A stretch of 64,000 nucleotides of DNA, taken from positions 45,239,822-45,303,821 of the forward strand of contig OX365955.1 in assembly GCA_947247005.1 (NCBI GenBank). The letters run 5' to 3'. This stretch comes from Spisula solida. Lineage: Eukaryota; Mollusca; Bivalvia; Venerida; Mactridae. Below, in pieces: positions 10,596-52,506 of this stretch (within the stretch, counting starts at the first letter, position 1; every line of letters starts with the position of its first letter). The notes beneath the pieces are model-generated. The model saw nothing but the letters and a program-made list of their open reading frames with translations. It was not told where the DNA came from and did no database searches. A program made the translations under genes and the position numbers.

Positions 10596-10598
10596 TTT

Positions 10599-24118: not shown

Positions 24119-27100
24119 TCATCGGACTAGACGTCCTACCCATGGTGCCTGTGTACAGTTATACGCTGCTATATCACACGCATCACACAATTGTTTACCC
24201 ACATTCAGGTGCATCTTGTAAATCTTGACTCCACAATCTTGTCTGAGAATCTCATCAATGTTCTGCTTGTATGGACAAGGGATGTGTGGACATCCACCCT
24301 CAACGACTGAAAATTGTAACCAAAACATAACGCGACTTAGGCACATAGAAATAATAGCATAACGGACAGGGAAGACAGCATTCAACAGAAAAAGCAGAGT
24401 AAAAATTGGTACACACTGTCTTAAAAAATAAAACAAAATATATTATGTCCTACTTTCATTTGTACATAAAAAAGATTATATAAAGTCAGACAGGGAAGGC
24501 AGCACTCAACTTAACCAGCCGAGCACAGAAAACATTTAAAACACACAACGCACAATGCCCAACTGAACAGGACAACACACATACCACAAGGACAATGCAC
24601 AACAGACACCGAGTATTATGCAATTTTGAAAGATACGAAGCAGCCTTGTGCTGGACAATGGTACATACAAAATTAATAAAGTTCATTGTTTTAATTGATG
24701 TAAAGGTAGCTTACTTGTATTTCGTTTTTGTAATTAAACCTATATATAAGAATAGAATATTTACTTTGCATAATTAATGGAACAACAGGCTATCTTCGCT
24801 TTAAATCTCTTAGCTATCAGCTATGCCCATATGACCCATTTACAACAAAATGTATGTAATCCCATCTTGTGATCGCATCGGCTTAAACACATTGCGATAA
24901 AAGTGCAGCTGAAAATTGCAACTGAAAATATCATTGTCTTTGGCAGATCAACATCACACCGCACAACACGTTGCGTGTAAGGCAGTTCTTGTTTGTCGAA
25001 GGCGGAGACACACGCGTTTTCTGCTACTTGTGTAGGGTAAGTATTTGTTATTTTATATGTGTTTTGTGTTGCTTTTTAGAGTGATCACTTACATAATAAA
25101 TTATATCGTTGACGCGATGAACGAACAATTAGTATATATAATTTATGTGCCCACATATGCCATATTTATCGAGAAAAATGGCGTGTGTCTCTGCCTTCGA
25201 GAAACAGAACTGCCTTACACGCAACGGGTTGTACGGTGTGAACATTTCTTAAACAAGTAAGAATAAGATATTTACCTGGATCACCGATGTACATGTAGCA
25301 CCCTGTGCATGTATTACCACCTTCAGCGTGAAAGAACGTATTTTGTCGATCACACTTCTCACCTAGCTGATTACCGACCGCCTCGTACAGAGGACAGTCC
25401 ATGTCCTCTCTGAATGGGCAGTAGGCAAGTGCTAAAATACAAAACGCATACTAAACTGAGCACAAAAAAGAAACGTACTTGCTACATTTTCTCCATACGG
25501 CTACATGTTAAACAACAGCTTGAATGTGATAACAATCAAAACACACCAAACGCATTGTTCGTTGTGACTTTCGTTGAAAGCTATAGAACAACATGTAACC
25601 ATATGGAGAAAATGTACCATGTAAGTTTCTTTATGTACTCAGTTTATATAATAAATATTTTCGATCTTTTGTGCCGTAAAAATGGCCACTACTAGTATTC
25701 AATGTTATAGAACAAAACAATCAGATTTGATTAGTTGAACCACAGGAACTTGCATTTATAAATTGAAAACAAAAATGAAAAAAAAATTGATTTTTTTTTA
25801 TATTTTTTTCATATTTTTTTTAAACCATAAATTCAAGTTCCTGTGGTTGAACATAATTAATTACAGTAGAGTAGTAGATTGTAGTAGAGTAGCTTGTACG
25901 TCACTGTTAGAACTTGTCTGAACGATGTATACATTGTTAACTGGAAATGCTTCGTTAAATTAGCATTTTTATGCACAATTAACGTCTGCAAACCGATGTC
26001 ATGGATGCATTGTACGAATAAGTTAATCAATTAAAATCATATCCTCAAACCCGCTACGCATGAGGTAAGGAAGATCAAGTACTTTAGTCAGATTGGAATA
26101 AAGTTATCAATTTATTACAGGAAATATAGAAATAGTATGGTGTTTACTGGTTAAGATTATATTCAGTCTAACCATATACACTGCAGACAATACAATTTTA
26201 CGACAGCTATAAGTAGTTCGCCGGGGATAACTCTAGCCTTATCAATAACCAAACAAAGCAAACTATAAACACTGTGCGGTCGACTGGCCGTCAGTTATCA
26301 GTGTAGATTTAAAGAGTATATCATTAAAAGTATAATTTATGCACAGGATTGAACAAAAATGAATATCGAAAATGTATTTAATTTTCATTTTTATTTGTAA
26401 ACAAAGGCTAGTGTTATCTCCGGCGAACTATATACATGTATATTGTGAGATAACTATTGGCGTGGTCCATACAATAACGATTGCAATGTTATAGTACATA
26501 GCATTTGGCCAGGCACTAAATAATGGTCAGCACTTGACAAAATGGCATACTGTTTCCGGAGCAACAATGAATACTAAAACATTAATTGAAGTAGGTGACA
26601 TCTTCATCTCGGAGTTAATATATCAAGATATTTTACTGTTCATACTGACGCATCGTGTCGTTTGTGAGCTAGGGCAGGCCCACCATTTCATCTACTTCTT
26701 ATCAGTCAGTACAATGATAAGGCAAGCATTATATACTTTACTGCTTGGATTAAAATACGAGGGGCCTTTGCATCCAGATAATATGACAATAGTTCGGTAT
26801 CGCATAAGTTCAGCATTCTGTCGGCAACGATTCGGCAACTCCTTCGCGTTTTCTTTAATATAACCGCAACCTTCCCACACGGTCGGGAAACATTCGAAGC
26901 TCCGTCCATTTTATTGATGAATGATCCCAAAAAGTTTTCCGAACGATTCAAAATTAAATACATGTATTATCGGCAATCCTTCCGCATAGCATCGGGGCTT
27001 AGTGGACGACATGTCTTAGATATGGTATACTGTTAGGCCACTCGTCTCGTCAGAACTTGAACTACTGTACCCAATTAATTCTCGTATCCATTGTAAATAT

Positions 27101-30100
27101 TGTTGTCTGGAATTGCCGAGGGACCGCCACATTTGTATCGCCGATTTACCCTTTAATTTCCCGTGTCATGTTTCCAACCCGCACTAGATCGAGAGATCGA
27201 TCTTTCCTTCATCTATTTCCACCGATACTCCACACAGATCATTCCGTTATAACCCGTAATAGTCATTATTCTGACCAATTTGTACGCTTCTCCAAACTAG
27301 CTCCACGACGTTCATTTCACTTCCGGTCATAACGCTAAATGCCGTACGTCCGGACCGCGTCCCGTATTGTCCGTACGAAGAGCTCCACTGACGTCATAAT
27401 ATTCGTGACGTCGGGGGATCATCTTCTGAGCCTATATAAAGCCCGAGATTTTTAGTTTACTTATCAATCGGCTCCACCAAACTTACCAAACTTACCAAAA
27501 CAGCTCCACCAGACCTATATCTATTCTACTGTATATTTAATGTCTGAAAGAAGGAAGACTGGAGAGGTAACTTATTTATAGATCTATTTCCAAGATCTAC
27601 TGGAGAGCTCCCAATTTCATTCCCTTATATTATCCCTGACCCCCTCGGCATTCAAGAGTTGTATATATACATGTTCATTTATGCTATATATATGTATGTG
27701 TGTAATTCCCTGACATGTACCACATTAAATCGTAGACTGAATACAGCATTATCTTTATTTACAAGTAAAGCCTGGTATTGTGATCACTTAGTGTTCGAAC
27801 CCTAACTCTTTAACAACCGTTCCCGGACCTTGGCAGGTGCGCCGGCGGAACAACTGGTGTCCAGAAGTGTGGGATTTTTCGGTGACTATAGAGAACCTTA
27901 TTGTTTTAAGAATATATTATCATCACGCTCCACAATTTGAAGCTCCTCTCAAAAGGGCTCCGACAAAGATTTACAGCTCCAATAACTATTGTACTCCGAC
28001 TCCAAATTTTAGAGCTCCTCATAAGAAGTGCTCCGACCCAAATTTCGGAGCTCCTCCATAAAATTGCTCCGACATATAAATTTTAGAGCTCCGAGAGATA
28101 CTTTAATACTCCAGCTCCACATACAGCTCCGCAACCTATATAAACATTTAAGAGAGTCAATGTGTATTCCCATACGCTTTTATTGATAATATTTCTGTAT
28201 GATACAAATATTCCAAAGTACAGTCTATGCCATTGGTGGAGGACGATTGATCATCTAGTCTATGAGTGGGGACGCCTGTTATCGAAGACTAGATTCCAGC
28301 TCCAAGGGCTCCAATCAATAGTAGGCATACTACCCTGGACCCAAGGACCTATTGGTGTTTGACATCTACACCCTAGACTGTACTAAAATCTCTATAAGTC
28401 ACCATAAAGCCTGCCTGTTATTCCCTGAAAATAGACATAAATACAAGGTTGAAGCTTATTATTAGAAAATAATAAGACATATAGTAAAAGATAATTTAAC
28501 TGTGATTTTTGTTCTATTATTATAGCAAGAATAAATACATTTAAACCTGATAACTCACCATGGAGAGAGAAGATAGAGATGAACCAGCCCATAGTAGAGA
28601 TACAGAGAATGTTTCCATACATTCATCCGAACCCGAATCTGACTATAACCCAGACTCAGCCGAGGAAATGCCTGAAGTACAAACCTCGCCAGATGCAGAT
28701 GAGTTTGAATCCCGTATAGAGAAGAGACTTGAAGCCATAGCCAATGAGATAGCCCAGAATCACATTTCTTTGACCCATGAAAAACAAGAAGTATGTGAGA
28801 AAATAAGAAGCTTCGAGCAAGAAATGCAGAGATGTAGACAAGAATCCCAGAACAATAATGGATTGATGAGATGCCCAATAGAAACTGTTTTACCTAGCAG
28901 TGTACCCGATATTTCCAAAAATAGAACCCGGCGTGAAGTGTCTCCTGACCCTGATATTGATTTTCCAAATTTTAACAGGGGAGACTACTCTTCCAATAAT
29001 GTTGGATGTAACATCAAATTAAAGCCACCAAAGTATGATGGGAAAGAAGATATCTATGAATTCCTTGAATCCTTTAACATTTGTACTGAGATCAATAGAT
29101 GGAGCCTTAATGCCAAAGGTTTATATCTAGCCAGTTGTCTTGTAGGTAACGCCCGCTCCTTACTAGCTGAGTTATCAGAACCAGAGAAAACCAATTATAC
29201 AATATTAAAGCAGAAACTTACCGAGCGGTATGGGTCTTTGAACCAAATGGAGGTCTTTAAAGTAAAACTGAGAAACAGACGACAGAAACCAGGTGAATCT
29301 ATTTCTGAGATAGCCCAAAATATCAAGAAAATGAGTCAATTAGCCTACCCTAATGTCCCCTTTGAGGTAATAGAGTCCATTGCCTTGGATCATTTCATGG
29401 ATGCTTTGACAGATTCAGACCTCCGACTAAGACTAAGAGAAGCCAATCTAAAGACCTTGTCTGAGGCCGAACAAACAGCCACTAGATGGGAAGCCTACAG
29501 AACTGCCGAAAAACAGAGAAATACCACTATAAATGTGTCCACAGCCAAAAAGGAACCAAATACCGATTCCAGAACTGAGGAAGATCAGAAATTTGAAGCC
29601 TTAAATGAGTCCTTAAACGCTTTAGTCCAAGACTTTCGTAACTTTAAGAGCCAATCCAAACCGAAACCAACCTACCCGCTTAACCAGAGAAGCAATTACC
29701 CTACAGCCCCTACCGAAGACTATCCTCAGTCAGACAACAGATACCAGTTACCACTGAATAACCGAGATAATACAAATCAGTATCATCAAAATAAACCAAA
29801 CCAGGGTTACCAAAGACAGAATAATTATAGGAGGCCAAACAATGACTCCCAAGACAACAGAACACCCCAACAACCTAACCATACAACCCAGAACTACAAT
29901 CAATCATCCAATAATAATTCGGGAAACGAGAGAAGGTCATTCTGGAGGCCCGCAGGACGACCAAATTACCACAACAGGGGCCCGAGATATTAAAACCATG
30001 CAGAAATGTAGGAACTGAAGGGTTTTTCATGCCAGCTTATATTCAAAACCAACCTATAACTATGTTAATTGACACAGGAGCTAATGCCACCATATTAAGA

Positions 30101-33100
30101 AGTAGTATACTAGACACCTGGCCAGATTCCTGTAGACCTGAAATATTACCTGTAAATGCCAAGTTATTAGGAGTTACCGGTGAAACCGCCCCTTTCCAAG
30201 GGAAAGCCAACATTACACTACAAATGGGAAACCAAACATTTGAGATATGGGTCCTATTAGCAGCCATCCGTAATGACTTCATACTAGGTAGAGACTTTAT
30301 CCTATCCCAAAAATGTGACTTACTGTTAAGCAAACAAACCATGCTTCTTAACGGGGAAAACCTATAGTGTTTCTCAAACGAACATGAAGTCTACATGAGT
30401 CGCATAGCTTTGACAGAAGATGTTGAAATACCTCCAGATTCAGAAGTGATAGTCACAGGTAGAACTATTGACCCATACAATCAAAACCAAACAGGTGTTG
30501 TTGAAGTCAGTCAAACCTTTGTTGAAAATCATGATCTCTTCATAGCTCGTGCATTGGTACAACCGAGACAAGGGTTAATTCCTATAAGAGTGGCCAACTT
30601 CGATTCCATACCCATACTACTCCATAAAGATACAATAGTTGCTGTTCTGGAAGGTACTGAGATAACCGAAATAAAGTCCGTAAACTCAGCCACTGTAGAA
30701 AGTCCACCTTCCCATACAGACCATAAGCCAGATGAACTACCCGAGCACTTGACTGAATGTTACCTTAGATCAGCTGAAGAACTGACAGAAGATCAGAAAA
30801 GGAAGTTTAAAGATCTTCTCATAGAATTTCAAGATATCTTTTCAAAATCCGAAGATGATATAGGCCATACAGACCTTGTAGAATACACCATTGATACTGG
30901 AGATAACCCGCCAGTAAGAACACCCCCTTACCGCCTACCCCTAGCAAAACGCGACGTGGCCGAGAAAGAAATACAGAAGTTAGTCGATCATGATTTGATA
31001 GAACCCTCACAATCCCCCTGGCTCAGCCCGGTAGTGATGATACCGAAGCCAGACGGCAAATCAGTCAGACTTTGCATAGATTTTAGGAAAGTTAATGCCC
31101 GACTAAAATTTGATGCCCACCCATTACCAAAAATAGACCAATCCATAGAATCCTTAGGTGGAAGTAAATTCTTCTCTTCTATGGACTGCAGATCAGCCTA
31201 CCATCAGATATCCATAAATGAAGCAGACCGGCCTAAAACAGCTTTCAGTATTGGAGGCGAAACCTATCAGTGGAAAGTTATGCCATTTGGTATGGCTACA
31301 TCCCCAGCAGTATTTGAAAGATTGATGGAACAGGTTCTTCATGGCTTGACATACAAAATCTGTTTGATATACCTAGATGACTTGTTATGTCACTCAAAAA
31401 CATTCCTTGACCACCTAGTCCATTTGAGACAGATGTTCGAAAGAATACGGGAAGCAAACCTTAAACTCAGCCCTTCAAAATGTCATTTCTTCCAAAAAGT
31501 GCTTAGCTTTCTAGGCCACCAAATCAGTGAACATGGGATTGAAGCCTGCCCCAAGAAAACCCAAGTAATCAGAGAATGGCCCAGACCTAAAAATGTCCGT
31601 CAACTGCGTTCTTGGCTAGGCCTTTGTGGATATTATAGAAAATGGTGTTTCAATTTGCTACTATAGCCAAACCCTTATACAAGCTTACAGAAGCGAACCA
31701 ACCTTTTGTATGGGATGACGCAACAGAGAGAGCATTCATAGAATTAAAAGCCAAACTGTGTAGTACCCCAATACTCGCCTTTCCCAATGAAACTTTACCC
31801 TTCCTCCTTGACACAGATGCTTCAAACGTTGCAGCTGGAGCCGTGCTCTGCCAAATACAAGACGACACTGAGAAAGTAATCAGTTACTTTTCCAAGTGTT
31901 TTTCTAGAACTGAACGGAATTACTGTACTACCCGCAAAGAATTGCTAGCCATAGTAGTGGCCGTTAAGCATTATCATCACTTCCTGTATGGTAATACATT
32001 CAAAATCCGGACCGACCATGGTTCCCTACAGTGGTTATTAAACTTTAAGATATGTGAGGGACAGTTAGCTAGATGGCTCGAGATCTTAGGAAACTACAAG
32101 TTTCAGATTGAACATAGACCTGGTCGAATCCACAGTAACTGTGATGCCCTGAGTCGACGCCCTTGTGTAGAGAAAGGTTGCCCATATTGTAGTAGAATAG
32201 AAGGAAAATTCCCATTGAAATGTGCAGAAATAAATGTCGCTACTACCTCCGTCACCCATGACCCCACTCCCACAGTAGATCCAGTACCGAATAATGACCA
32301 AAGTAAAATTACTGACCTTTCTGATATAAGTGAAACCCAAGATGATGATGAAACCATTAAGCAAGTCAAACAGTGGGTTGAGAGAAATACTAGACCGGAT
32401 TGGCAACAAATTTCCAAATTTGACAAAGAGATCAAACATTATTGGCACAATTTTTCCTTACTGGAAATAGAAAATAATGTTTTGTACCAAAAAGTACTGA
32501 CTGATACCAAATCCCTGAAAAGACTCATTCTAATCCCTAAAAGTCTTCGTAAAGCAGTATTCAATCAGCTACATGAGAGGCCTTCAGCAGGACACCTTGG
32601 TTTCAAAAAGACTTATGCCCGAGTAACTCTCCGATTTCATTGGTGGGGGGTAAGCCGAGACATTGAGAAATGGTGTAAAATGTGTGATACCTGTGCTCAG
32701 AGAAAACCTCCACACAGAACTGCAAAAGGTCCCCTACAAATATACCAAGTGGGACAACCTATGGAACGTTGTGCCCTAGATATCCAAGGTCCTTATCCAA
32801 TTTCAAGTAAAGGGATGAGATACATATTAGTGGTTGGTGATTACTTCACAAAATTCCTACAAGCCATACCCCTAAAAAGCATAGAAACCAAATATGTAGC
32901 CACTAAATTGGTCAACAAATTTATTTCCGTGTTAGGAACACCCTTAGAACTTTTCTCTGATAGAGGCTCAAACTTTGAGTCCACTGTTTTCAAAGAAATG
33001 TGTGAACTCCTAGGAATCCACAAAACCCGAACTACAGTTGGACGACCAAGCTCAGACGGAATGATAGAAAGAGCAAACAGAGTTATACAAAACATGATGA

Positions 33101-36100
33101 CAGCTTTCGTCGACAAAAAGCAACATGACTGGTGTGAGAAGTTACCTTTACTTGTTCTTGCCTACAACAGTAGCATACACAGTTCAACTGGTTTCAGTCC
33201 ATCCATGATGATGTTTGGTAGAGAAATGAATCTTCCCATAGACTTGGCCATCGGTAAACCTGTAGATGAAAGTTCAAAGTTCACCACAAACTATGTTATG
33301 GACTTAGAAGAAACATTGACAGAGGTACATGAAACTGCTAGAGAAAATTTAGGACAGACCGCAAGGAATATGAAGTCAAATTATGACAAAGGTAAATTCC
33401 ATAATGAATACCAACCCGGAGATGCAGTATGGTTGTATAATGCCAAACGACGGAAAGGCCTCAGCCCAAAGTTACAAAACTTCTGGACTGGTCCCTACAC
33501 AATAGTGAAGAAATGGGGTGATGTTTTGTATAGTATCAAAGAGAAGCAGACAGACAAAGGCCAAGTCGTCCACCATGACAAACTGAAGAAATACAAGGGA
33601 GACAATATTCCAACCTGGTTCCAGGATGATTAGAGTAACTAATTGTTCCCTTGCATACAGGTATTCCGTGAAATTATTGCTGTATACAATAATATGATGT
33701 TATCAAATGAAAGAATACCTTTACATTATATGAACCTGTACTACTATGCTGCCAATAGACCTGACCCCTCCACAATAGCTCTCCAGTGATCGTACCTGTA
33801 AATATATGCCATATAAATGTTATAGTACCTTAATACATGGTAATTTAACCTTACTGAATGTATTAAATGTAATTACCACGTTTTGGATATTTACTAAGCC
33901 ACAGATAAGATAGTCTTCACGAAGAAATCTATAAAACTATAACCTTTATTATATGATACTAGCCATAAATAGTAAATATTATTTTCTATCATTATAGGCT
34001 GCGGCCTGGAAGTGCAAGCTATGCCCGCACGTGGACAAGGCGTTCCCCAAGAGAAGCAACGCTTCAAGACATGTAATCGAGGTTCATATGCTACATAAAT
34101 ATATGTGCAGTCACTGCAGCAAACTATTTAGTCGCATTGACAACCGTCACAGATGCATAAGAATCCACAGTGCAAGACTAGATCTATATAATACAGCCAC
34201 ACATACCAAGGGAAAAGAAGCAGAAAACAACATCACCAATGAAGCCATTGATGCCTGTTTAGAAAAGACGATCATATTCAGATATGAATCTACTCCTAGC
34301 CATAAACCTGACCCGCCTACTTATGAGATACCAAAACCTACCATGAAAAGCCTAGTTCAAATTCCAAAGTCAAAGCCTACACCTAAAACATCAACCCCAA
34401 TAGTGAGACCTACTGTACACGACTTAGGATTGGAGTTAACCTCGGATGAGGAAGAACTTGATTTTCTTATTCCTGAAGATTTTCCGGAGATATCCCTTGA
34501 AGAGATAAGCAACACTCTCAAAGAAAATGAGAAGGAAAACAAACTTCAGGAAAAACCCAAGAAAGGAGAGAAGGTAGGGATTAACGAAAGAAACGGTGCG
34601 AAAGAAAGTAACAGTCGGGTAAAGCCAAAGAATGGAGAGAATGAAGTGCTTAACGAAAGGAAAAGTGCGAAAGACAGTAACAGTCAGGTAAAGCAAAAGA
34701 AGGGAGAGAAGGTATTGCCTTATGAAAAGAAAAGCGTTCAGAAAGATGAAGGTAATGAGAAATGTAAACAAGTAAGCAGAGAGGAAACAAAAGACACTAG
34801 AAAAATAAACTTTAAAATTCCAAAAATTCAGAACTCCAAAATACCTTCAAAAGAATTGAACAGCTGTTTAAGAGAGGAGCTTCTCTATCCAAACCATACT
34901 GATGAAAACCCAATTAATATCGGTACAATGAGGAAAGTCGTATCCTATGAGGACCTAGATACTTCAGATGACCACCCAACAACAGACCTTCAAGAAGCGG
35001 AATTTGAGCCAGAATTGGAAGAAGTAACCATACCTGAAAATATTATAAGAACACTAAATTATATCGAAGCCACCCAGAAAAGCTTTGTTAAATTAAACGT
35101 AGGAGGAGTGATCTTCAATACCAGTTTTAAAACTCTTCAGAATTCCCCGGAGTCAGTGTTGGCCCGCTTGCAGGAGATAACAACCACAGAAAGAACCATA
35201 TTCATAGATCGCAGTGGTAAACATTTTGAATACATTTTGAACTTCTTGAGGAATGGCTGTATCCTATCCAGAAGCCTTTTCCCAGCTAACATAACCCTTA
35301 CGGAAGAAATCCTCTTGGAGAGCAGATTTTACCACATTCATGAACTTTCTACAATACTCGAAGGACATCTAAGACAGCAGAAGCTCCACAACTCAGTGAT
35401 ATGAACTATAGAACCATCTTTAACTGGAAACCAGGAAAATTGTGAAATCTACTGAACTCTGTGAACTGAATTAAAAATTGTGACTATATTTAATCTATAA
35501 ATTAGTATTTATTCATGTAACAAAAATCTTTTATCTCCAAATCAAAAATTCATCCTATTTTAGACGTACCTACACCTATTTAGTAAAGGGGGGAAGGGTT
35601 ACACCCACTGATAAAAGATTTTTAAATTAAGTATTACTCTTGATATATTACAATGTGGTATTTTAGTTTAGTATGTTATATATAGATCAGTAAGTATTAC
35701 TTAGTACAAACCAGATTTTGACGAAACTTCACGACTATGACTGCATCGGTAGGCACCCTGAAAAATAATCAATTATGATGTATGCACATGTAAACTTTAT
35801 GATAAGTACCCACATGGTATTATTGCACATGAGAGTTACAGAGATTTTGTCATCAACAAATAGCTATCTATGAGTATATTGTTGTAAAGGTCCCGTACGG
35901 TCGGATTATTATATTGCACAATTTTATATGTATATAAATCATTGTCAGCACAAGCATTATTTTTGCTATTACTATGAAATACTTGTATATTATGGGAGAC
36001 TTAGTTTGGTAACAGGAGGTTACTACTTTTAGGCCTACACCTATTGCTGACTTAAATCCTGTCTTATTGATATTTGCTCGAGCCTTAGCAGGGTTCTCGG

Positions 36101-38422
36101 TATGTAAGTAAATTCTGAATGTTCGATTGGAGACCCTGCGGGGTACACCTTTTACATGTACCTTATATATTTTTGCACACCTTTACATGTGTTCTTTTGA
36201 CATACGCCGGTGGGCCGGGGGTCTAAACTCCGTGTTCTCCTTTAATAGGCAGTCACCGACAGGTATTATTATTTATTGTTATTGGCGCCCAGGGTCGTGC
36301 AAGCCCTTAATGTCTCCCCAATTTTGTACTTATTGTGCCGTGTGATTCACATTTATTTTTGGGATAAGATATTTTTGTTTTCAAAATTGGACCAATCATT
36401 TTATATGTAGGCCTGGCACTTGTTGTTGTAGTTAGTGAGATTACGATAACTATGTTGATGAAACTTATGTGAAGAGAGATAATTCTGAAATTTAAAAGTC
36501 TGTGCACAGCATCCATCCAAACTATTATAGGATACTTATGTGCTTTGCCTGTTATATACTCTCATATGATACATGTAAATGTGGAAATACTGTACTGAAC
36601 TAATGAAATTTGTGCCTTAATAAGTAGAGACTGTTGAGAAGGTACACTGCCCGGATGTGACTATATTGTAATGTATATTTATATTTAAATTGATTGACTA
36701 TAAATTACATTGCCTTATACCTGTAAATAATCCAGAAGCAAGTATATTAACCAGTTATACTTGTAAGTTGATAGGAACCTTGCCCGTCAGGACTATTCGC
36801 CTGGCCAAGGAATAGCTCCTCCTGGAATTGAACAAAAACAATGTTTAAAATGTTGTATTGTATTGTTTAATTTTTTATGACATGTCTTGTTAGTTATATT
36901 TAAAGAATTGTTCATTATAGTTAAGTGTTTAAGAATTGTTAAAAGAAAATGATTGTTAACTTGGTATGAATGATTAAGTATGACTGATTTATTGACCGGT
37001 TTCGAACCTTGCCCCTAATCGAACCCTAGCCTGACTGTATATATAAGGAATGATTGAATTGACTATACCTGATGTTGCATTTCTGGACCGCCGTCCAAGA
37101 GATAGTAGAACGACTGGCTGCCTGGTACCTGTAATGAATTTGAAATGATGCATATTGAGAAATACTTGACTGTTTTACATAGTTTTGTGTAATTGAATAG
37201 ATTACAGTTTCAGTAGGTCCAGCCAGAAGCAGCATGTCTATTTATTTTAACTTGTTGTATGTATGTAAATTTCAAAGTTAATATTTGTTCTCTAAAATTA
37301 TATTGAAATTCAGTCTTACGTATGTACGTGCCATTTTATTACTTTGAAAATTGTATGATAATAACTTGTTTCAAGCTCTGACGTGATTATCTCCCCTTTT
37401 TCAATTCTTAATTGGGATTAATTGAAAGTTGTTTTCATGCCCATAATTTATGACTTACCTTTTTACTTCCAAATTCAGGGACTGAATTCCATATTGGGGA
37501 GGGTGCAATGTTAGGCCACTCGTCTCGTCAGAACTTGAACTACTGTACCCAATTAATTCTCGTATCCATTGTAAATATTGTTGTCTGGAATTGCCGAGGG
37601 ACCGCCACATTTGTATCGCCGATTTACCCTTTAATTTCCCGTGTCATGTTTCCAACCCGCACTAGATCGAGAGATCGATCTTTCCTTCATCTATTTCCAC
37701 CGATACTCCACACAGATCATTCCGTTATAACCCGTAATAGTCATTATTCTGACCAATTTGTACGCTTCTCCAAACTAGCTCCACGACGTTCATTTCACTT
37801 CCGGTCATAACGCTAAATGCCGTACGTCCGGACCGCGTCCCGTATTGTCCGTACGAAGAGCTCCACTGACGTCATAATATTCGTGACGTCGGGGGATCAT
37901 CTTCTGAGCCTATATAAAGCCCGAGATTTTTAGTTTACTTATCAATCGGCTCCACCAAACTTACCAAACTTACCAAAACAGCTCCACCAGACCTATATCT
38001 ATTCTACTGTATATTTAATGTCTGAAAGAAGGAAGACTGGAGAGGTAACTTATTTATAGATCTATTTCCAAGATCTACTGGAGAGCTCCCAATTTCATTC
38101 CCTTATATTATCCCTGACCCCCTCGGCATTCAAGAGTTGTATATATACATGTTCATTTATGCTATATATATGTATGTGTGTAATTCCCTGACATGTACCA
38201 CATTAAATCGTAGACTGAATACAGCATTATCTTTATTTACAAGTAAAGCCTGGTATTGTGATCACTTAGTGTTCGAACCCTAACTCTTTAACAACCGTTC
38301 CCGGACCTTGGCAGGTGCGCCGGCGGAACAATACAACTACATGTACAACATTAAATATGAATATTATGATAAAATATACCTTTGCAAATAAAAACCAACG
38401 CGATTAGAACAAGCAACTTCAT
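24119..38422 (-). CDS. Cysteine-rich secreted protein, paralog B (intron 1 holds an 11.3-kb retrotransposon)
   Basis: Exons (minus strand): 38380-38422 (signal peptide MKLLVLIALVFICK), 25276-25431 and 24119-24306, all with GT-AG borders in phase 1; total 387 nt, 128 residues. The mature part has two cysteine blocks: exon 2 (CPFREDMDCPLYE, then CD..., CTGCYMY) and exon 3 (GGCPHIPCPYKQN, LRQDCG, CDACDIAAYNC) ending in TGA at 24119-24121. All splice sites and the frame are intact. Intron 1 is about 12.9 kb because a full LTR retrotransposon (27031-38330) sits in it antisense to the gene, starting only about 50 bp from the exon 1 donor; without it the intron would be ~1.7 kb, like the paralogs. 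A small MITE (24950-25243) lies close to exon 2 in intron 2. I infer a secreted disulphide-rich protein; whether it is an immune, shell or other factor cannot be told. Confidence 0.75.
24363..24386. other. Conserved intron motif, first copy in paralog B intron 2
   Basis: GGACAGGGAAGACAGCATTC, matching motif copies in introns of the other paralogs. In B both copies are in intron 2 rather than intron 1. Confidence 0.45.
24487..24510. other. Conserved intron motif, second copy in paralog B intron 2
   Basis: CAGACAGGGAAGGCAGCACT, 124 bp from the first copy. Confidence 0.45.
24950..25243. mobile_element. MITE with ~66-bp terminal inverted repeats, 33 bp from exon 2 of paralog B
   Basis: Left arm includes CGTTGCGTGTAAGGCAGTTC and GGCGGAGACACACGC; the right arm repeats these in reverse complement (GCGTGTGTCTCTGCC, GAACTGCCTTACACGCAACG). 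About 294 bp in intron 2. Confidence 0.85.
25733..25851. repeat. Short inverted repeat with A/T-rich core
   Basis: Arms GTTGAACCACAGGAACTTG and CAAGTTCCTGTGGTTGAAC flank an A-run/T-run core. Small MITE in intron 1 of paralog B. Confidence 0.8.
25852..27026. other. Intron 1 of paralog B, left of the retrotransposon
   Basis: No coding is supported. The overlapping open frames at 26534-26963 on both strands share no family features and have no consistent splice structure. Confidence 0.4.
27027..27030. repeat. Target site duplication, left (ATAC)
   Basis: ATAC directly precedes the left LTR and also directly follows the right LTR at 38331-38334. Extending to five bases breaks the match, so the duplication is 4 bp. 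Confidence 0.8.
27433..27440 (+). promoter_or_regulatory. LTR promoter TATA box
   Basis: TATATAAA in GCCTATATAAAGCCCG. A start about 30 bp on (near TTATCAATCGG) would begin the R region. No ATG occurs between there and 27540. Confidence 0.7.
27540..27566 (+). CDS. Predicted nine-codon start exon for the accessory gene
   Basis: The first ATG after the predicted LTR transcription start opens nine codons and then meets AG|GTAACT at 27567, a strong 5' splice-site match, in phase 0. The candidate 3' splice site at 33997 also enters its ORF in phase 0, so splicing would supply the start codon that the zinc-finger/KCTD ORF lacks. If unspliced, the frame ends after 13 codons at a TAG. Inferred from sequence only. 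Confidence 0.5.
27853..28559 (+). promoter_or_regulatory. Leader with clustered GCTCC motifs and a splice-acceptor-like site before gag
   Basis: Between 27920 and 28135 GCTCC occurs about eleven times and ACTCC three times, often preceded by AG and roughly every 12-25 bp. A TTCTATTATTATAG at 28512-28525 closely resembles the TTCTATCATTATAG before the accessory ORF. Only unspliced RNA would keep the motif cluster. Confidence 0.55.
27855..27873 (+). promoter_or_regulatory. Primer binding site (possible tRNA-Leu type)
   Basis: TGGTGTCCAGAAGTGTGGG starts two bases after the LTR. It resembles the complement of a tRNA-Leu 3' end, but with two extra bases, so the primer identity is tentative. Confidence 0.45.
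28560..29993 (+). CDS. gag: Gag structural protein of the LTR retrotransposon
   Basis: 477 codons, starting at CACCATGG (strong Kozak context). Residues ~1-150 are acidic and charged with a coiled-coil-like stretch. About 155-310 match the retrotransposon Gag (capsid-like) domain, with IKLKPPKYDGKEDIYEFLES and later RYGSLNQMEVFKVKLRNR, GESISEIAQNIKKM. The C-terminal ~120 residues are rich in Asn, Gln, Pro and Arg and end in an Arg/Gly/Tyr tail. No CCHC zinc knuckle is visible, so RNA binding may rest on that basic tail. The frame is intact. The protease frame overlaps it in the -1 register from 29918 to 29993. Confidence 0.9.
   Translation: MEREDRDEPAHSRDTENVSIHSSEPESDYNPDSAEEMPEVQTSPDADEFESRIEKRLEAIANEIAQNHISLTHEKQEVCEKIRSFEQEMQRCRQESQNNNGLMRCPIETVLPSSVPDISKNRTRREVSPDPDIDFPNFNRGDYSSNNVGCNIKLKPPKYDGKEDIYEFLESFNICTEINRWSLNAKGLYLASCLVGNARSLLAELSEPEKTNYTILKQKLTERYGSLNQMEVFKVKLRNRRQKPGESISEIAQNIKKMSQLAYPNVPFEVIESIALDHFMDALTDSDLRLRLREANLKTLSEAEQTATRWEAYRTAEKQRNTTINVSTAKKEPNTDSRTEEDQKFEALNESLNALVQDFRNFKSQSKPKPTYPLNQRSNYPTAPTEDYPQSDNRYQLPLNNRDNTNQYHQNKPNQGYQRQNNYRRPNNDSQDNRTPQQPNHTTQNYNQSSNNNSGNERRSFWRPAGRPNYHNRGPRY
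29918..30367 (+). CDS. Retropepsin-like aspartic protease of the retrotransposon
   Basis: Open in the -1 frame relative to gag; the first ATG is at 30029. The catalytic motif MLIDTGANATI is at residues ~11-21 counted from that ATG, and a flap-like segment and FILGRDF follow. This is the classic single-domain pepsin of LTR elements, active as a dimer and used to cut Gag-Pol. It ends at a TAG (30365-30367), after which the same frame continues into the RT ORF without a frame change. Confidence 0.85.
   Translation, partial: FGKREKVILEARRTTKLPQQGPEILKPCRNVGTEGFFMPAYIQNQPITMLIDTGANATILRSSILDTWPDSCRPEILPVNAKLLGVTGETAPFQGKANITLQMGNQTFEIWVLLAAIRNDFILGRDFILSQKCDLLLSKQTMLLNGENL
29978..29984 (+). promoter_or_regulatory. 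Candidate -1 frameshift heptamer at the gag end
   Basis: G GGC CCG in the gag frame fits the X XXY YYZ pattern, and the -1 frame is open from 29918 through the protease. C in the Y position is unusual, so the site is tentative. Confidence 0.3.
30365..31666 (+). pseudogene. pol: Reverse transcriptase part of pol, bounded by a TAG and a frame break
   Basis: An ATG is at 30395; the same frame is open right from the TAG at 30365. RT motifs seen: PPYRLPLAKRDVAEKEI, LCIDFRKVNAR, FGMATSPAVFERLM, and the catalytic IYLDDLLCHS (YLDD about 31369-31380), then LGHQISEHGI and LRSWLGLCGYYRKW. The frame then runs into a TAG at 31664-31666, while the RNase H region carries on one base out of register. The family reads straight through here, so a one-base loss or error near 31650-31662 is the simplest explanation. 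With the upstream TAG this makes pol non-contiguous in this copy. Confidence 0.9.
31642..33633 (+). pseudogene. pol: RNase H and integrase part of pol (frame offset from RT)
   Basis: Open from 31642 to TAG at 33631-33633. The RT-linked RNase H shows LDTDASNVAAGAVLCQ, ERNYCTTRKELLAIV and KIRTDHGSLQWLL. The integrase follows: HHCC zinc-binding part (GHLGFKKTYARVTLRFHWWG ... CDTCAQRK), and DDE core with Asp in CALDIQGPYP, Asp in LFSDRGSNFES and Glu in GMIERANRVIQ. The end has a GPY/F-type module (NFWTGPYTIVKKWGDVLY). All three catalytic acids are present. It is intact except for the offset from RT at its start. Confidence 0.92.
33634..33997 (+). promoter_or_regulatory. Inter-ORF region ending in the accessory-gene 3' splice site
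   Basis: 364 bp without coding between the pol stop and a pyrimidine tract TTCTATCATTATAG ending at 33997. The AG also contains the in-frame stop that closes the accessory ORF upstream, so the ORF begins exactly at the splice site. Confidence 0.6.
33998..35404 (+). CDS. Accessory protein: zinc fingers plus KCTD-type BTB/T1 domain, in the env position
   Basis: Open for 468 codons plus stop from the predicted 3' splice site (33998) to TGA at 35402-35404. The first in-frame ATG lies inside the finger region, so the upstream start is probably supplied by splicing. N-terminus: WKCKLCPHVDKAFPKRSNAS then RHVIEVH is a C2H2-like finger with a longer spacer; YMCSHCSKLFSRIDNRHRC then IRIH is a second variant finger. 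Middle: an acidic Asp/Glu-rich segment (TSDEEELDFLIPEDF) and three degenerate ~24-residue Lys/Glu-rich repeats (about 34560-34740). C-terminus (35081 to ~35373): FVKLNVGGVIFNTSF ... ERTIFIDRSGKHFEYILNFL ... ITLTEEILLESRFYHIHEL, a full BTB/T1 domain as in KCTD proteins and Kv channels. KCTD T1 domains oligomerise and many bind cullin-3. Role here unknown: nucleic-acid binding plus oligomerisation or ubiquitin-ligase recruitment is inference. The frame is intact although pol is broken. Confidence 0.85.
   Translation, partial: AAAWKCKLCPHVDKAFPKRSNASRHVIEVHMLHKYMCSHCSKLFSRIDNRHRCIRIHSARLDLYNTATHTKGKEAENNITNEAIDACLEKTIIFRYESTPSHKPDPPTYEIPKPTMKSLVQIPKSKPTPKTSTPIVRPTVHDLGLELTSDEEELDFLIPEDFPEISLEEISNTLKENEKENKLQEKPKKGEKVGINERNGAKESNSRVKPKNGENEVLNERKSAKDSNSQVKQKKGEKVLPYEKKSVQKDEGNEKCKQVSREETKDTRKINFKIPKIQNSKIPSKELNSCLREELLYPNHTDENPINIGTMRKVVSYEDLDTSDDHPTTDLQEAEFEPELEEVTIPENIIRTLNYIEATQKSFVKLNVGGVIFNTSFKTLQNSPESVLARLQEITTTERTIFIDRSGKHFEYILNFLRNGCILSRSLFPANITLTEEILLESRFYHIHELSTILEGHLRQQKLHNSVI
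35405..37508 (+). other. 2.1-kb noncoding tail of the retrotransposon
   Basis: No open frame of note. A TTATTGGCGCCCAGGGTCG near 36275-36293 looks like an LTR edge plus primer-binding site but has no LTR partner that I can see. The last bases before the 3' LTR (GGGGAGGGTG, 37495-37504) can serve as the polypurine tract. Confidence 0.55.
37495..37508 (+). promoter_or_regulatory. Polypurine tract
   Basis: GGGGAGGGTGCAAT-type purine-rich run ending directly at the 3' LTR start; plus-strand priming site by position. Confidence 0.5.
37509..38330 (+). repeat. 3' LTR (822 bp)
   Basis: Same length and same sequence wherever compared with 27031-27852, including the TATA box, mini-exon and ends. Followed by the right target duplication ATAC (38331-38334). 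Confidence 0.95.
38331..38334. repeat. Target site duplication, right (ATAC)
   Basis: Matches 27027-27030. The next bases lead within about 45 bp to the donor of exon 1 of paralog B. Confidence 0.8.
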
Positions 38423-38494
38423 CTTGGTAGTTACGAGGTATATCGACTCCGCAGTGAATCACAACTGTCTAATGTTACTGGTGTTTGCATGGTT

Positions 38495-38502
38495 TATTTA
38501 TA
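38495..38502 (-). promoter_or_regulatory. TATA box of paralog B
   Basis: Minus-strand TATAAATA about 75 bp upstream of the ATG at 38422. The promoter and exon 1 survive next to the retrotransposon. Confidence 0.5.
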
Positions 38503-39353: not shown

Positions 39354-41720
39354 CTGCATGTACATGGTTGATATTAAGTGGAAATGCCTGTAAGTTCATG
39401 TAAAGTGTTTGAAATGTTCGCTAACATGTATTTTGTTAACTTTTATGCACTATTTGCATAATATCTGATTTGAATGCTTGTAAATTATAATGCGAGATCG
39501 TACTAGTACATGTATAAGAAATGGTTTATTCAAAATACATTGTACATACATGTATTTATAATGTGCACATTACTCCAATATCGGGTTTAGGAGAAACCGT
39601 AATTGCACTATTTTTTGTACGTTAGTATAGTATACACTTGTCATGTTAGAGATGCATTAATTAGGTGGTCTATTTAGGCATGAGACACGTTAATATCATC
39701 ATTAATTATGTAACTGTCATTAAGAAATGTCGGTTTAATCCCGACAATTGAGGAAAATAAGAACATTTTAATTAATGCTAGACAATTTCTACCTTGTATG
39801 TTGTCATGTAAACATGTTGTACGCCTTAAGGAGGCCAGAACTACCTTGTTAAAAATCGTATTAGATAAGAACAAACATGAAATTTAGTTTCAATTATCGC
39901 ATATGAATGTTAATTTATGACAATAAACGTAATAACCGCGCACAAAATAGATATTTATTAACTTTTTATTTTTCGCATGTATGGTGTCATATATGCAAGA
40001 AATAGACAAAATAAACAAAATGCAACGGTAGGTCATTAGAAAGTCATGTATTTCGAAAACGAGCCTGGTGACATATTATTTTTATGATTCCAATGCTGTT
40101 TTAGATGATTAAACTGTTATTTTAAGATATTTCGGAGAAAATTCGATCGTTAGATAAAAGGCGCGCGTACCACCTTAAGGCTGTACTGACGACTACTTGC
40201 ATGGCAGTATGATGATTTTGGGTGTCCAGGTTGATACAGTACCATTAGTCTCTTCAGTGACAGGCATGTTCGTAGACCTTACCTAGCGAAGTGGGTGCGA
40301 GAATGTGGTCGTCGCGTGTTCGCTACACCTTTCGTGCCACTGGTCTAGAGAGCATAATTATACTATTTTCTTTGTCACCGATGGTGTGCATCATACACAG
40401 CTTTTATGCGGCTACACCTACGATGTTTTGAGTTACATCCTGGGTTGGTTTGATCAGAGATCAACATTGGGAGACTTTTCTTCGGAGGCGTTTGTCAATG
40501 AGAAGCAACTATATGTATGTTGGCGAATCAATACCCGCCCGTGTCAACACGATGCCAGGATTATGGAGTAGGCCTGGAGGCGTCTAATGGTGTTTCATTG
40601 CAAAATGACCACCAGGAGGTGATATTGCAGACTTGGTAACTTAAAGGTCGTTGCCTGTTTAAAGCAGCCATCTTGCAATACCAGAACTGTTTTACCAAGG
40701 AAAGGGCTCAATTGGACCTTAGACAAATCACTAAGTCAGCAAAATTTGTTAATACCTAAATAAAAGATAAATATTCTAAATATGTATGATAATTAGAATA
40801 CAGATGTATTTGGATTCATATTTTCTGTGCTATCTAATATCTATACATGTACATTTATCACTTGAACCCTGCTTTCTTCGTCTGTTGTGTGTACTTTGGC
40901 TGGGTATGGAACCATGTAGCTTGAATATCCCGTGACCATGACGTCACTGAAGGATTCAATCCAAGACGAAACTAGTCAACATTGTATAATTGGTGTGTGA
41001 CGTATTGTTTGGCTGACAACGCAAGAGCAAATATGCCAACTCAACGTTAGAATCAATCGCATGTGCTGGATTCTTTTGTAGAGTTTTAACGAAATACCCT
41101 CGACGCTCAAGACTAGAATAAGAACTGTCGAAGCAACCCAATATTTTTTACGGCTATTTTTTCCAGAACCCGACTCAACTAGGCTACTTATCTAAGTTGC
41201 GTCGATAGTACTTATTCTTGGCTTTTTCGTTGAAATCAAAATTTATTTTCCGGTGTACCTAAGGCAATGGTATTTTGTCCGTATATCTGTTATAACCCAC
41301 ATGTAACTGTACAATTTATCCAGAGTAAACAAAAACAAAATTTATAATATCTAAGATAACATGAATTTTATAAAAGAATTTTTTCTTTTACTCTTTATCA
41401 ATGATACAGTTACCTGTATTGTAACCCACAGGATGTTTGTGTGTAACAAAAAATATACAGACAACAGACACCATGAAAATACGTTGGGTCCAAGTTAAAC
41501 TTCGTTTAACCTTGGCCCCTTTTGTGGCGTTATGTTTTCGCCCAGATATGTATAACATGTATATATTATTGTTCTGGCAAATTAAAATTGCTCATTTTCA
41601 AGTCAAATTGGTGTTTCTTGTATATTTTGCTTTATAACTGTTTCACATATGAAGTTGCATGTTTCAGTACTCTTTGGGTAAAACAGATGCACATTAATGT
41701 ATTGTTTGTCAATTTTAATG
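39354..41720. other. Intergenic between paralogs B and C, no supported gene
   Basis: Degenerate LINE sequence may continue for a few hundred bases past 39353. An 88-codon open frame at 40305-40571 has no recognisable domain. Nothing else seen. Confidence 0.4.
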
Positions 41721-42548
41721 AAGTTTTGGGCACTAGGCCAGGAACAATGTTTAAGTACATTTTAGTTAGTCTTATATCCCTGTATAGTGAGCAGCACATG
41801 ACACAACGGTATTCAATTTCAGTTACATTTTGATTACATAACTTACACAGTCTGTTTTCTCTATCAATATTATTATATCTACCTAATTCTATTTCTAAAC
41901 AATGAGAACTTGTCTGATGTTAGTCAATTCAGGCACAATATATACATGTATATATTGTTCTTGGTTAATTGTCTTCTGAGACAACGGGCCCTAACGGGCT
42001 TGGGCACCAAACGTCCCTCGGGACTCTGCAGATGTTATAGCACGAAAAAGCATGCGTTAACCCTACATTCTGATAAATGTATTGTTTGTCCATTTTAAGT
42101 TATCTGCGTTCTTCGGACTTGGAGTGATTGCATGAGGTTGAACGTTGTAATTATTATACAGCAAATGAGGTTATATTTGACCGTGTTTTCTTGTTTTGCT
42201 TGAATAATTGATAGTAATGTTTTTAGATTGTGCTGTCCAGTTAGGATAATGTGGGAGTTACGTTTTATTTTATGTCTACACAAAATATTACAAGTATTTC
42301 AGTTTAACATTGGTATTTTAGATGTCTGGATTAGCCTTTATAATTGGTTTAACACGGTAATAGTGGACTCGACCGCTGCGTCACTCTATTATTACCCTCA
42401 CTGGACAGTACATCCAAAACGAGTATTTAAAATAAAAACGTTTATTATAATTAGATAAATAGTTTATTCACTTAAGAATGATTAGAGAAACAACATTTAG
42501 TCATTTACGTTCGCCATGTACATTTATTTATACATTGACATATCTTCC

Positions 42549-45348
42549 CTACCAAGGCATATCACTGCAATCATATATAGCAATATCGCAAGCGTTGCAC
42601 ATTTGTCCATTCACCTCCATCTGCATTGTTGCCACCTGTATTCCACAGTCCATCCGGGCATTTTCGTAAACGTCATTCGTGTATGGACAAGGTATGTTTG
42701 GGCACCCTCCGTCGGCAGCTGAAAATATCAAAAACAATGCTGAATAACGTTACAGTCATGTTCCACATGAAAGATGCGTTTTTTCAAACGTTTGCCGCTT
42801 GAATAACACCGAGTCGTATGTTAATGGAAGAAAATCTTGAACTGTGAGCAACGTTCATATGCAGCCCCGTTTTCATGTGAAGCGTACAACCAATGGGTTT
42901 GCGGTGCGTTTTTTACTATTTTGCATCAGTCTATATGGCACGATATGGTTGTCATTGACGCGACGAAAAAATACTGTTCGTGAAAACGCAGGTGTTGTAT
43001 TGTTTTTACGCGCATCAATACATGCAAGTTATGTACCGTAGAGGGTGAAATAGTGGAATGTTCATCCAAAACAAGTAATTTTAATCGAGTGTCGTCTGCT
43101 GAGGTTTATATAACATATGTACTTTATCAAGTGTGAACATTCCGTTTTATCACCCAATGTGGGATAACACATTCGATTTACCGAACAAAACAAATGTAAA
43201 GGCACTCATGATAAATGTAATCATTTGTCAATTTTACGAAGAATTTGTAATAAGCGAATTAAGCGTCTAAGCATGTGAAATAACTAAATTGGCTTAAATG
43301 CGCCACCTGGTTCGCGCGCGAGGGACGTTTTTTAACTGGGTCAAAATGTTAATGTTATATAACAAGATATTTTTGAAGCCTCCCATAGCAGCCCAATAGT
43401 CAGAAATGTTACAAGTCATGGCGCCCTTTAACATTCTGACCGCAAAATAAATAGGGCATTCTATACTTTTGATGGTCAACCTTCATGTAAACTTTAAATA
43501 TAAGTGTCCTTTTAAAAGCGTTCTTCAGTTATTGATTGGTAACCATTTGTTTTATTTATTCATGTTAAATGTCACAGAAACCATGATCTTTGACCTAAGG
43601 ACACCAAAAGCAATAGGGGTCTATTGTTGATGACCAGCGTACATGTAAAGTTTGAAGATCATGGCCCAAATAGCTCTTGAGTAATTTATTGGAAACTATT
43701 TGGTCTACAGAGCGACCGACAGACCGAGTTACCGACATTTGCTAAACAATGTACACCCTTCTTTTTCGAGAGGGGAATAAATATATCACACGGCAGTTAG
43801 GGTGACATGGATATAATTGTCAATGTCAGATATCACTCGAGACGAACTCATATTTCGAGGGTTGGCACTATTCAATGTCAACCTCACTGCCATGTGATAT
43901 TAATTTATTTCAGCCATCAAATAAGACTGCTTGTGTCACCCATTTGGTAATGGTCCTGTGTAATTTATCCGGCGAATAAAACATACTGTCATACAAATAT
44001 AATCATATTTTCCACGTACCTGGTGCTGGGATACACATGTTGCATCCTGGGCATACTTGGTCACCAAATGTGAAAACCGTTCGGTTTCGTGCACATTGTC
44101 GGTTTTCAGACTCATACAACTGACAATCCATGTCGTTTTGTGATGGACATTGGCCAAATGCTAGAAGAGGTAAATAGATGTGTCTCAGAATTATGATGTT
44201 AAAAACCGGACCTGTGATTGGTTGGCTGTAAGAGCAGTCTTATTCTAGTAATTTACCAATGGAAATTTCGTTTACAAGTTCAGTTTTACAATATCCAATA
44301 ATCGTACCGATTGCCCTACGCCAATAGGAAGCAAAAACTATCTGGGATGTACTTTCAAATACGTGTATCTTTAGTGAGGGTATTTAATTAAATATAATTA
44401 TTTATTTATTTATTTTCAATGGGTGTAAGTACAGATTGTTACTAGACATAACGCTACAATTTTATTTACGATGTGCATAATATTTATTTTTACTAGAGAT
44501 AATTATGTCGAACTTCGTCTTTTCAGAAAGCATTTTACTATCAACGTTTTTATCCAAAAAGACTTAAATCGGACAGGGAAGGCAGCAATCAACAGAAAAA
44601 CAGGATACGAAAACACAGTATGTATACGAAGTGCTAGCTCTGCATTAAAGCGACCCCGATCAAAATGGGTTTGTTGACTTTTATTTACTAATGTTAGTAA
44701 GAAAATTATTATTGTTGAGGGGATTTGAACTAGGTAAACTGATACAACATTTAAAACTCAAAATTTGATAACGGTTTTAAATATTTGACTGATTGAGTTT
44801 TCGGAAACATAATGGTCCAATTGCAGTATTGTAAACGAATAAATATTGCTTCAAAATTTGATGTCACAGTGCTGATAAGCCCAACTTTACTAAAATGTTT
44901 GTGTCGTTTTCAAGCCTCTGTGACAACACAAAAGGGACAAAAATGTCCATGTTATTTTTGCCACGTTGGCCCCTGCCACTATGGCTTATCAGTTATCTTG
45001 AAAGAGACGACATTATATCAATGCAAACCAAATGCATCACATAAAATTTGGTAACAGATACGATAATATTTTAATATTTTCACACTGTTTTTTAATATTT
45101 TTTATAAATTTAGGTAACACGGACATGAATGTTGATATCTTGACCGTTATCACACTTTGAGTAGTATAGAAAGTACAAATGTTTAAGTGTTTAACAATAC
45201 AACTACATGTATAATATTATATGAAATTTGAATAACTTAATCTGGAACTACTATCATTTGGTACAATTGATTTTGTGTATTAAAAAACAATAGATAAATG
45301 TTTACCTTCGCAAATGAAAACCAACGCAATTACAACAAGCACTTTCAT
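42549..45348 (-). CDS. Cysteine-rich secreted protein, paralog C
   Basis: Exons (minus strand): 45306-45348 (signal peptide MKVLVVIALVFICE), 44020-44160, 42549-42718; phase 1 at both introns; 354 nt, 117 residues. Exon 2 encodes FGQCPSQNDMDCQLYESENR then QC, and a second cluster CPGCNMC; exon 3 encodes DGGCPNIPCPYTNDVYENAR, DCG, and CNACDIAIYDC, ending MPW and TAG. Compared with A and B it has an extra Cys in CNMC. Intact frame and splice sites. TATA-like run at 45401-45418. Exons 2 and 3 follow the same plan (CP...DC...C..C), so the protein looks like two diverged copies of one small disulphide module. Family not recognised. Confidence 0.78.
43785..43910. mobile_element. Small MITE in intron 2 of paralog C (also in D)
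   Basis: Arms ATCACACGGCAGTTAGGGTG and CAACCTCACTGCCATGTGAT. The counterpart in unit 2 lies at about 49519-49637, so it predates the duplication. Confidence 0.7.
44571..44596. other. Conserved intron motif, paralog C intron 1
   Basis: GGACAGGGAAGGCAGCAATC followed by AACAG. Confidence 0.5.
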
Positions 45349-51025: not shown

Positions 51026-51119
51026 GTTGAAACGTTTATGGAAGTTCAATTCTGAAACTGCTGGTACCAACATGGCTTTATATATACATCTGTATATAAC
51101 AATTTTGTCCCCAGCAGAC

Positions 51120-52480: not shown

Positions 52481-52506
52481 TCTCGACCTTTAATTAGCAT
52501 TGTTTA

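Follow-up and report, generated by a model that had tools for sequence, protein, structure and literature searches.

ORF3, an accessory gene with finger-like motifs and a KCTD-type T1 domain in a Ty3/gypsy retrotransposon lineage of Spisula solida

Introduction

Animal LTR retrotransposons have few accessory genes besides env, and most of these lack an explanation. A stretch of 64,000 nucleotides from the genome of the bivalve Spisula solida (hereafter the window) raises the question of what such a gene may be built from and what it may do. Between the integrase and the 3' LTR of a retrotransposon in the window, in the position of env, lies an open reading frame (ORF3) that a preliminary description of this DNA took to join two zinc fingers to a T1 domain of the KCTD family. 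It has to be asked whether this frame belongs to the element or to the host, how its product is started, where its domains came from and on what the product would act. ORF3 is built from recognisable host-type parts and persists in three or more diverged element families that were recently active.

Structure of the element

The window element is a Ty3/gypsy LTR retrotransposon at positions 27031-38330, comprising gag, a damaged pol, an open ORF3 and paired LTRs (Table 1). The two LTRs are identical at 822 of 822 bases and are flanked by a 4-bp target duplication (ATAC/ATAC), which together indicate a very young insertion. The order gag, then protease, RT, RNase H and integrase, was confirmed by Pfam matches in four separate frames, with RVP, RVT_1, RT_RNaseH, Integrase_H2C2 and rve over their cut-offs in pol, and the closest proteins to the RNase H-integrase region, among the matches listed, are gypsy-type pol proteins. 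In this copy a stop (30365-30367) and a frame change (31639-31666) break pol. No CCHC knuckle was seen in the window gag (28560-29993), the C-terminus of which has many N, Q and R residues. No stop-to-stop frame longer than 118 codons is present in 35405-37508, and the 118-codon frame extends into the LTR. A second purine tract resembling a polypurine tract (AAAGGGGGGAAGGG, 35586-35599) lies directly past ORF3, 1.9 kb upstream of the 3' LTR. Rfam gave no match within 26900-38500, and a structured leader RNA was rejected as a candidate, its folding being no better than that of shuffled sequences (z -0.31).

Table 1. Positions of the observed and predicted features of the element, numbered from the first base of the window
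Feature	Position	Strand	Remarks
5' LTR	27031..27852	+	822 bp, TG...CA; TATA box near 27434
Predicted first coding exon of ORF3	27540..27566	+	9 codons, ATG 27540, donor GAG/GTAACT, phase 0
Leader	27853..28559	+	primer-binding-site-like TGGTGTCC at 5' end; GCTCC array
Acceptor-like TTCTATTATTATAG ahead of gag	28512..28525	+	best score among 84 AG sites in 27500-28700
gag	28560..29993	+	477 codons, open; Retrotrans_gag 24.2 bits against a cut-off of 24.1
pol	29918..33633	+	protease, RT, RNase H, integrase; broken in the window copy
Predicted ORF3 acceptor TTCTATCATTATAG	33984..33997	+	rank 1 of 171 AG sites in 33400-35400
ORF3	33998..35404	+	fingers 1 and 2 (residues 6-57), charged linker, C-terminal T1 (364-450)
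3' non-coding region	35405..37508	+	about 2.1 kb; polypurine tract adjoins 3' LTR
3' LTR	37509..38330	+	followed by ATAC, as ahead of the 5' LTR

ORF3 in copies and families of the element

The S. solida genome (932 Mb in 36 contigs) was searched with ORF3, and the best candidates only were taken from this search. Family 1, to which the window element belongs, includes at least two further full-length copies of ORF3 (C8 and C2; 468 codons, stop-free, 99% and 98% identity) and at least one decayed copy (73-79% identity). A search with the LTR placed the C8 and C2 frames within elements whose LTRs are 95% identical to those of the window. The LTR pair of C8 is identical at 855 of 855 bases and has a 4-bp duplication of its own (ATAT), and the 5' LTR of C2 is split. 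In family 2, at least four places match both ends of ORF3, at 35-41% identity on the T1 side and 29-34% on the finger side, and their LTR pairs are 98.6-100% identical over 726-869 bp. Both gag (437 codons) and pol (1244 codons) are open in three of these four places; ORF3 is likewise open in three (420, 420 and 408 codons) and contains a stop in the fourth. The integrase and RT of this family are 60% and 57-58% identical, respectively, to those of the window.

A third family was recognised among 15 further stretches examined for weaker matches to ORF3. In its element L025, gag (377 codons), pol (1261) and ORF3 (441) are all open, and the LTR pair is identical over 1640 of 1640 bp; L026 has a piece of integrase and an ORF3 of 408 codons, open but with one of the finger-2 cysteines lost, and L030 is decayed. 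Six of the 15 stretches (L027, L029, L031, L033, L034 and L035) contain a T1 domain but no pol and were interpreted as KCTD genes of the host; the rest are further remains of family 1 or family 2. Immediately upstream of the family-3 insertion, L025 also contains a tandem array of ACGACTGAATTATACCATTA-like units (9412-9901, minus strand).

ORF3 is present in at least three element families of one genome, always between integrase and 3' LTR, and the integrases of the other ORF3-bearing families are 52-60% identical to that of the window. At least four sister elements combine full-length open gag and pol with a full or near-full ORF3. The preliminary description held that the frame is carried by the element and is not a chance neighbour, and this is borne out by two more open copies (98-99% identity) and by two diverged families in which the genes follow the same order. 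It had also set out beforehand two outcomes that would speak against this view, namely that no other element copies carry the frame or that it is a single host gene; what was found instead is a frame that recurs with its element. Its remark that ORF3 stays open while pol is broken applies to the window copy; the broken pol is a trait of that copy, four sisters having full-length open gag and pol. A host gene lying beside or under the insertion, or picked up by chance by one copy, would agree with the annotation of the Mercenaria homologue as an ordinary gene at one place, but is contradicted by several LTR-bounded insertions, from three families, with ORF3 in the same position; this explanation is refuted for the S. 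solida genome and retains virtually no probability. ORF3 is, almost beyond doubt, an accessory gene of a Ty3/gypsy lineage.

Beyond this genome, the clam Mercenaria has one annotated homologue, the only protein among the 109 with E values up to 1 that matches ORF3 outside the T1 domain. Scans of viral contigs, for which ORF3 and the RNase H-integrase piece served as queries, yielded no relatives.

Domain composition and selection

The open frame extends exactly over 33998-35404, that is, 468 codons from stop to stop. Its residues 364-450 match the Pfam profile BTB_2 with an E value of 9.3e-17 and 61.6 bits, against a curated cut-off of 21.4, in agreement with the clear KCTD-type T1 domain of the preliminary description; that the T1 domain is of KCTD type is certain. 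The same profile matches ORF3 in family 2 (E 4e-17, 62.8 bits) and family 3 (E 3e-12, 47.1 bits), and in all three families the domain is C-terminal, not N-terminal (364-450 of 468 residues in the window). AlphaFold models, made of single chains only, are confident for the T1 part (89-97 in 10-residue blocks from residue 341 on, save 78, 79 and 86) and not confident for the finger part (blocks of 41 to 63). Foldseek matched the model to KCTD15, KCTD10 and KCTD13 (E 1.6e-7 to 4.1e-7), and the nearest solved T1 sequences are those of KCTD10 (E 5e-13) and KCTD13 (E 7e-10).

The two fingers are real as ligand patterns, though non-canonical. Finger 1 of the window reads C6-x2-C9-x15-H25-x4-H30, and the invariant residues of finger 2 in four homologues read C37-x2-C40-x10-H51-x-C53. 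Across the four ORF3 proteins compared, C9, R24, H25, V26, H30, C37, C40, H51 and C53 are invariant, C6 falling outside the Mercenaria gene model. The spacing, C-x2-C-x13-15-H-x4-H in finger 1 and C-x2-C-x10-12-H-x-C in finger 2, departs from the canonical C-x2-4-C-x12-H-x3-5-H, though the ligands are kept. No zinc-finger Pfam model reached its cut-off in ORF3, the best being of zf-C2H2 type, with 11.1-11.4 bits for the ORF3s of families 2 and 3; in a phmmer comparison with the PDB, the fingers of Miz-1 matched residues 8-60 (E 6.5e-4). The earlier claim of two C2H2-like fingers stands for the ligand patterns, but these are not two ordinary C2H2 fingers. The linker contains a 69-bp in-frame tandem repeat of about 2.4 copies (34546-34734).

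Comparison of copies, proposed earlier as a check, indicates that selection maintains ORF3, in family 1 at least. Among the three open family-1 copies, pairwise dN/dS is 0.20, 0.36 and 0.15 (Fisher p 0.0016, 0.017 and 0.0001), the change per site being mostly synonymous. In family 2, the C15-C6 pair gives 0.25 (p 0.02), and the two pairs that involve C3, a copy with an altered ORF3 end, give values near 0.47 and 0.62. The Mercenaria protein and the window ORF3 share 19 of 23 finger-1 residues, 22 of 30 finger-2 residues, 70 of 95 in T1 and 33 of 95 in the linker.

Predicted splicing from the LTR

The frame of the window family has no in-frame ATG ahead of finger 1, the first one falling after it, and the codon preceding 33998 is the TAG of the predicted acceptor. 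Position 33998 is thus presumed to be the first base of an exon and not a start codon. The donor paired with this acceptor, after 27566, ranks second of the 47 GT sites in 27463-28559 and is the best of those with an in-frame ATG in phase 0; in C8 and C2 the acceptor is conserved, as is the mini-exon apart from one changed codon. Comparable arrangements were found in family 2, with an ATG mini-exon of seven codons within the LTR (donor rank 2 of 85, acceptor rank 1 of 134), and in family 3, with one of 13 codons (donor rank 3 of 91, acceptor rank 3 of 128). In both, the donor again outscores all others that follow an in-frame phase-0 ATG, the acceptor adjoins finger 1, and the phase is 0 throughout. 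Two acceptors outscore the proposed one in family 3; one of them lies within ORF3, and the top-scoring one leads out of the ORF3 frame when translated. The mini-exons are unlike in sequence between families, indicating that what is conserved is the arrangement rather than the sequence.

These predictions make it likely that ORF3 is translated from a spliced message started in the LTR. A donor in the R region has a retroviral example in HTLV-1. The unspliced frames of families 2 and 3 have an ATG upstream of finger 1, and splicing is thus not the sole route to ORF3 there. The intact 468-codon ORF at 33998 of the preliminary description is accordingly exact as an open frame, but the start of the protein lies most likely in the LTR and is reached by splicing. 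The acceptor-like stretch before gag is a twin of the ORF3 acceptor, sharing 13 of 14 bases (TTCTAT[T/C]ATTATAG at 28512-28525 and 33984-33997), and gag may, given this likeness, also be produced from spliced RNA. In unspliced RNA the LTR mini-exon would constitute a small open frame upstream of gag (27540-27581), for which a role as a switch between gag and ORF3 is possible.

The position of ORF3 and its probable production from spliced RNA are shared with env, and an env-like structural or entry protein might be supposed on this ground. Four ORF3 homologues, however, have no membrane-spanning hydrophobic segment, their highest 19-residue hydropathy mean being 0.81-0.92, and carry zinc-site and T1 domains instead, making such a protein most improbable. 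ORF3 could alternatively guide integration or tether the pre-integration complex to chromatin, comparable to the chromodomains of chromoviruses: a domain of nucleic-acid-binding type accompanies an otherwise ordinary integrase and its frame adjoins that integrase. It is predicted, though, to be a separate spliced frame rather than an extension of the integrase, and the insertions lie in unlike places, with duplications (ATAC, ATAT and ATAT) too few for a target preference to be read from them; a role in integration is held to be quite improbable.

Motif arrays and the first finger

The leader of the window element contains GCTCC 13 times, against 0.42 expected and at most three in 1000 dinucleotide shuffles. 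The 5-mer that ranks first by z in the region from promoter to gag differs between the families: GCTCC in family 1 (16 occurrences, 0.62 expected, z 14.5), ACACC in family 2 (18 occurrences, 3.7 expected, z 6.8) and CAGCC in family 3 (10 occurrences, 1.5 expected, z 5.9). Over LTR and leader, the motif occurs 18 times in sense and once in antisense orientation in family 1, and 19 and four times, respectively, in family 2. The C8 copy has it five times in the LTR and 18 times in its 814-nt leader. Among 45 control segments of 1400 nt from the window, 11 had a top z of at least 5.9, of which two cover the array and most of the rest are minisatellites, and nine segments within the three elements gave a top z of only 2.6-4.6. 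Because of these controls, the array is rated strong in family 1 and moderate in families 2 and 3. The family-1 array is in part a 36-bp tandem repeat.

The residues at helix positions 6, 3 and -1 of finger 1 are R/N/K in family 1, R/S/R in family 2 and R/D/N in family 3, the arginine at position 6 being the R24 that is invariant in four ORF3 proteins. The finger-1 helix of the Mercenaria protein (KRSNASR) is identical to that of family 1, and a CTCC-type array would be expected for its element. Under the code for finger recognition in the available part of its source, R, K or H specifies G, N or Q specifies A, and D specifies C (PMC12264921), giving predicted triplets of G-A-G, G-any-G and G-C-A for families 1, 2 and 3. 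The antisense cores of the respective motifs are GAG, GTG and GCT. A single register out of six brings seven of eight code assignments into agreement with these cores, against 0-3 in the remaining five, although register, finger and code were picked after the data had been seen and one arginine supplies three of the seven agreements. Among the six possible pairings of motifs with families, the true one scores highest at 7/8 and the wrong ones 4 to 6; random motifs reach 7/8 in 1.65% of trials when of the form xyzCC and in 0.23% when any 5-mer is allowed. The match rests on finger 1, the register of finger 2 being uncertain because its ligands differ. The fit of finger 1 to the array motif of each family is suggestive and post hoc.

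Origin of ORF3 and of its T1 domain

A quick tree of the RNase H-integrase region, built with 46 of the 120 database proteins listed (2691 were found), joins families 1 and 2 (SH-aLRT 99), with family 3 joining them at 94, just under the star level. The element is placed among bivalve and unnamed sequences, in a tree without reference elements of the named Metaviridae clades. In the T1 tree, families 1 and 2 and Mercenaria form a clade (98/92), and family 3, on a long branch, does not group with them; a single clade of all four ORF3 T1 domains is not rejected (p-AU 0.25). The simplest history would be a single old gain followed by divergence, and a second T1 gain in family 3 is a possible alternative. 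No KCTD subfamily and no host T1 is joined to ORF3 with strong support in these trees, from which the capture of a known host KCTD gene, suggested previously as the simplest origin, draws no backing.

The same trees bear on a role for ORF3 as a KCTD-type CUL3 adaptor, the fingers or linker of which would bring a host restriction factor for destruction, or which would mimic a host adaptor. The solved T1 sequences nearest to it, KCTD10 and KCTD13, belong to CUL3 adaptors and have the same fold. The T1 domain of ORF3 nevertheless falls outside all KCTD subfamilies in the tree, those of KCTD10 and KCTD13 included, and family 1 is without several residues past SVLARL relative to these two proteins. 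Such an adaptor would also leave the finger-1 helix residues and the motif arrays of the elements without a role, and is on balance unlikely.

Proposed mode of action

Of the roles proposed in the preliminary description (DNA or RNA binding, cullin-3 recruitment and targeting of integration), the present comparisons favour DNA or RNA binding. The best reading, to which slightly better than even confidence is attached, is that ORF3 is a spliced, nuclear, multimeric nucleic-acid-binding accessory regulator, resembling CERV and Rev in role and not in family. Its RNA would be spliced such that the start codon and the first 7-13 codons come from the LTR, exon 2 opening just before finger 1. The C-terminal T1 domain would then form a ring-like oligomer, KCTD T1 domains usually being pentamers, and this ring would present several pairs of zinc fingers. 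The fingers would bind the LTR or leader of their own element, as DNA or RNA, at the family-specific array of short motifs, and ORF3 would thereby control transcription, splicing, nuclear export or packaging of element RNA. The chances that ORF3 regulates its element through the element's own LTR or leader appear evenly balanced, and DNA is about as probable a target as RNA. The model predicts three things that can be tested: a start exon encoded by the LTR, oligomerisation of T1 into a ring, and a target array particular to each family.

In a more tentative and rather unlikely extension, finger 1 and the array motif (cores GAG, GTG and GCT) may have changed together as the families diverged, the multivalent regulator of each family controlling its own copies only, as a selfish self/non-self switch. 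With similar reserve, this could be likened to a Rev/Tax system built of host-type transcription-factor parts. If such co-evolution of the target is true, it would constitute a retrotransposon with its own sequence-specific regulatory circuit, and would offer a way to ask how families sharing a genome keep their regulation apart.

Comparison with known systems

ORF3 shares T1 fold and motif with KCTD10, KCTD13 and KCTD15, but its T1 domain is C-terminal, behind fingers and a charged linker; in known KCTD proteins, T1 is N-terminal. ZBTB proteins such as Miz-1 (ZBTB17) likewise combine zinc fingers and a BTB-superfamily domain in one protein. Their BTB domain is of a different class and N-terminal, with C-terminal fingers, and the domain order of ORF3 is thus the reverse. 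KCTD1, with its Crypton-derived domain, is another meeting of a KCTD with a mobile element according to the part of the source available, though there a host gene gained a transposon domain, whereas here a transposon carries a KCTD domain (PMC3212892).

The system most alike in proposed role is CERV of the gypsy element Cer1 of Caenorhabditis elegans, as described in the available sections of its source. CERV is needed for export of genomic RNA, is encoded by a spliced mRNA, has a possible zinc finger and, by prediction, assembles into rings with at least five subunits (PMC10309623). Both are extra proteins in the env position, CERV being spliced and ORF3 spliced by prediction; the possible zinc finger, predicted rings and flexible linkers of CERV, which is nuclear (PMC10309623), would have their parallels in ORF3. 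Unlike ORF3, CERV shares its first exons with gag, is without a T1 domain and, in those sections, has no homology outside nematodes (PMC10309623). The start exon of ORF3 is predicted in the LTR, and its ring part would be the KCTD T1. In the comparisons made, the two share no sequence, and ORF3 is no member of the CERV family. ORF3 also resembles the ORF3s of bdelloid rotifer LTR elements, which are captured non-env genes between pol and the 3' LTR, inherited within lineages (PMC5408684). These, however, are enzymes (GDSL esterase and DEDDy exonuclease), with no KCTD or finger type among them in the portion of the source available (PMC5408684).

Non-env ORF3s (PMC5408684) and spliced regulators (PMC10309623) are therefore known from the available parts of these sources, but an LTR element combining T1 and fingers was not found in the literature searched. 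A KCTD-bearing LTR element of any kind was likewise not found in that literature, outside of which lie Repbase and subscription journals, in keeping with the earlier statement that none had been described. BTB is absent from the main texts of PMC10294476, PMC8905726, PMC6238403 and PMC7264820.

Other features of the window

Downstream of the element, a large direct repeat spans 41711-54350, with two units about 5.7 kb apart that are 89-99% alike over the stretches listed; no frame of 150 codons or more is present in this region. Minisatellites occur at 7561-7898 (unit about 36 bp), 10533-11093 (about 33 bp), 61514-62159 (17/34 bp) and 63599-63987 (17-18 bp).
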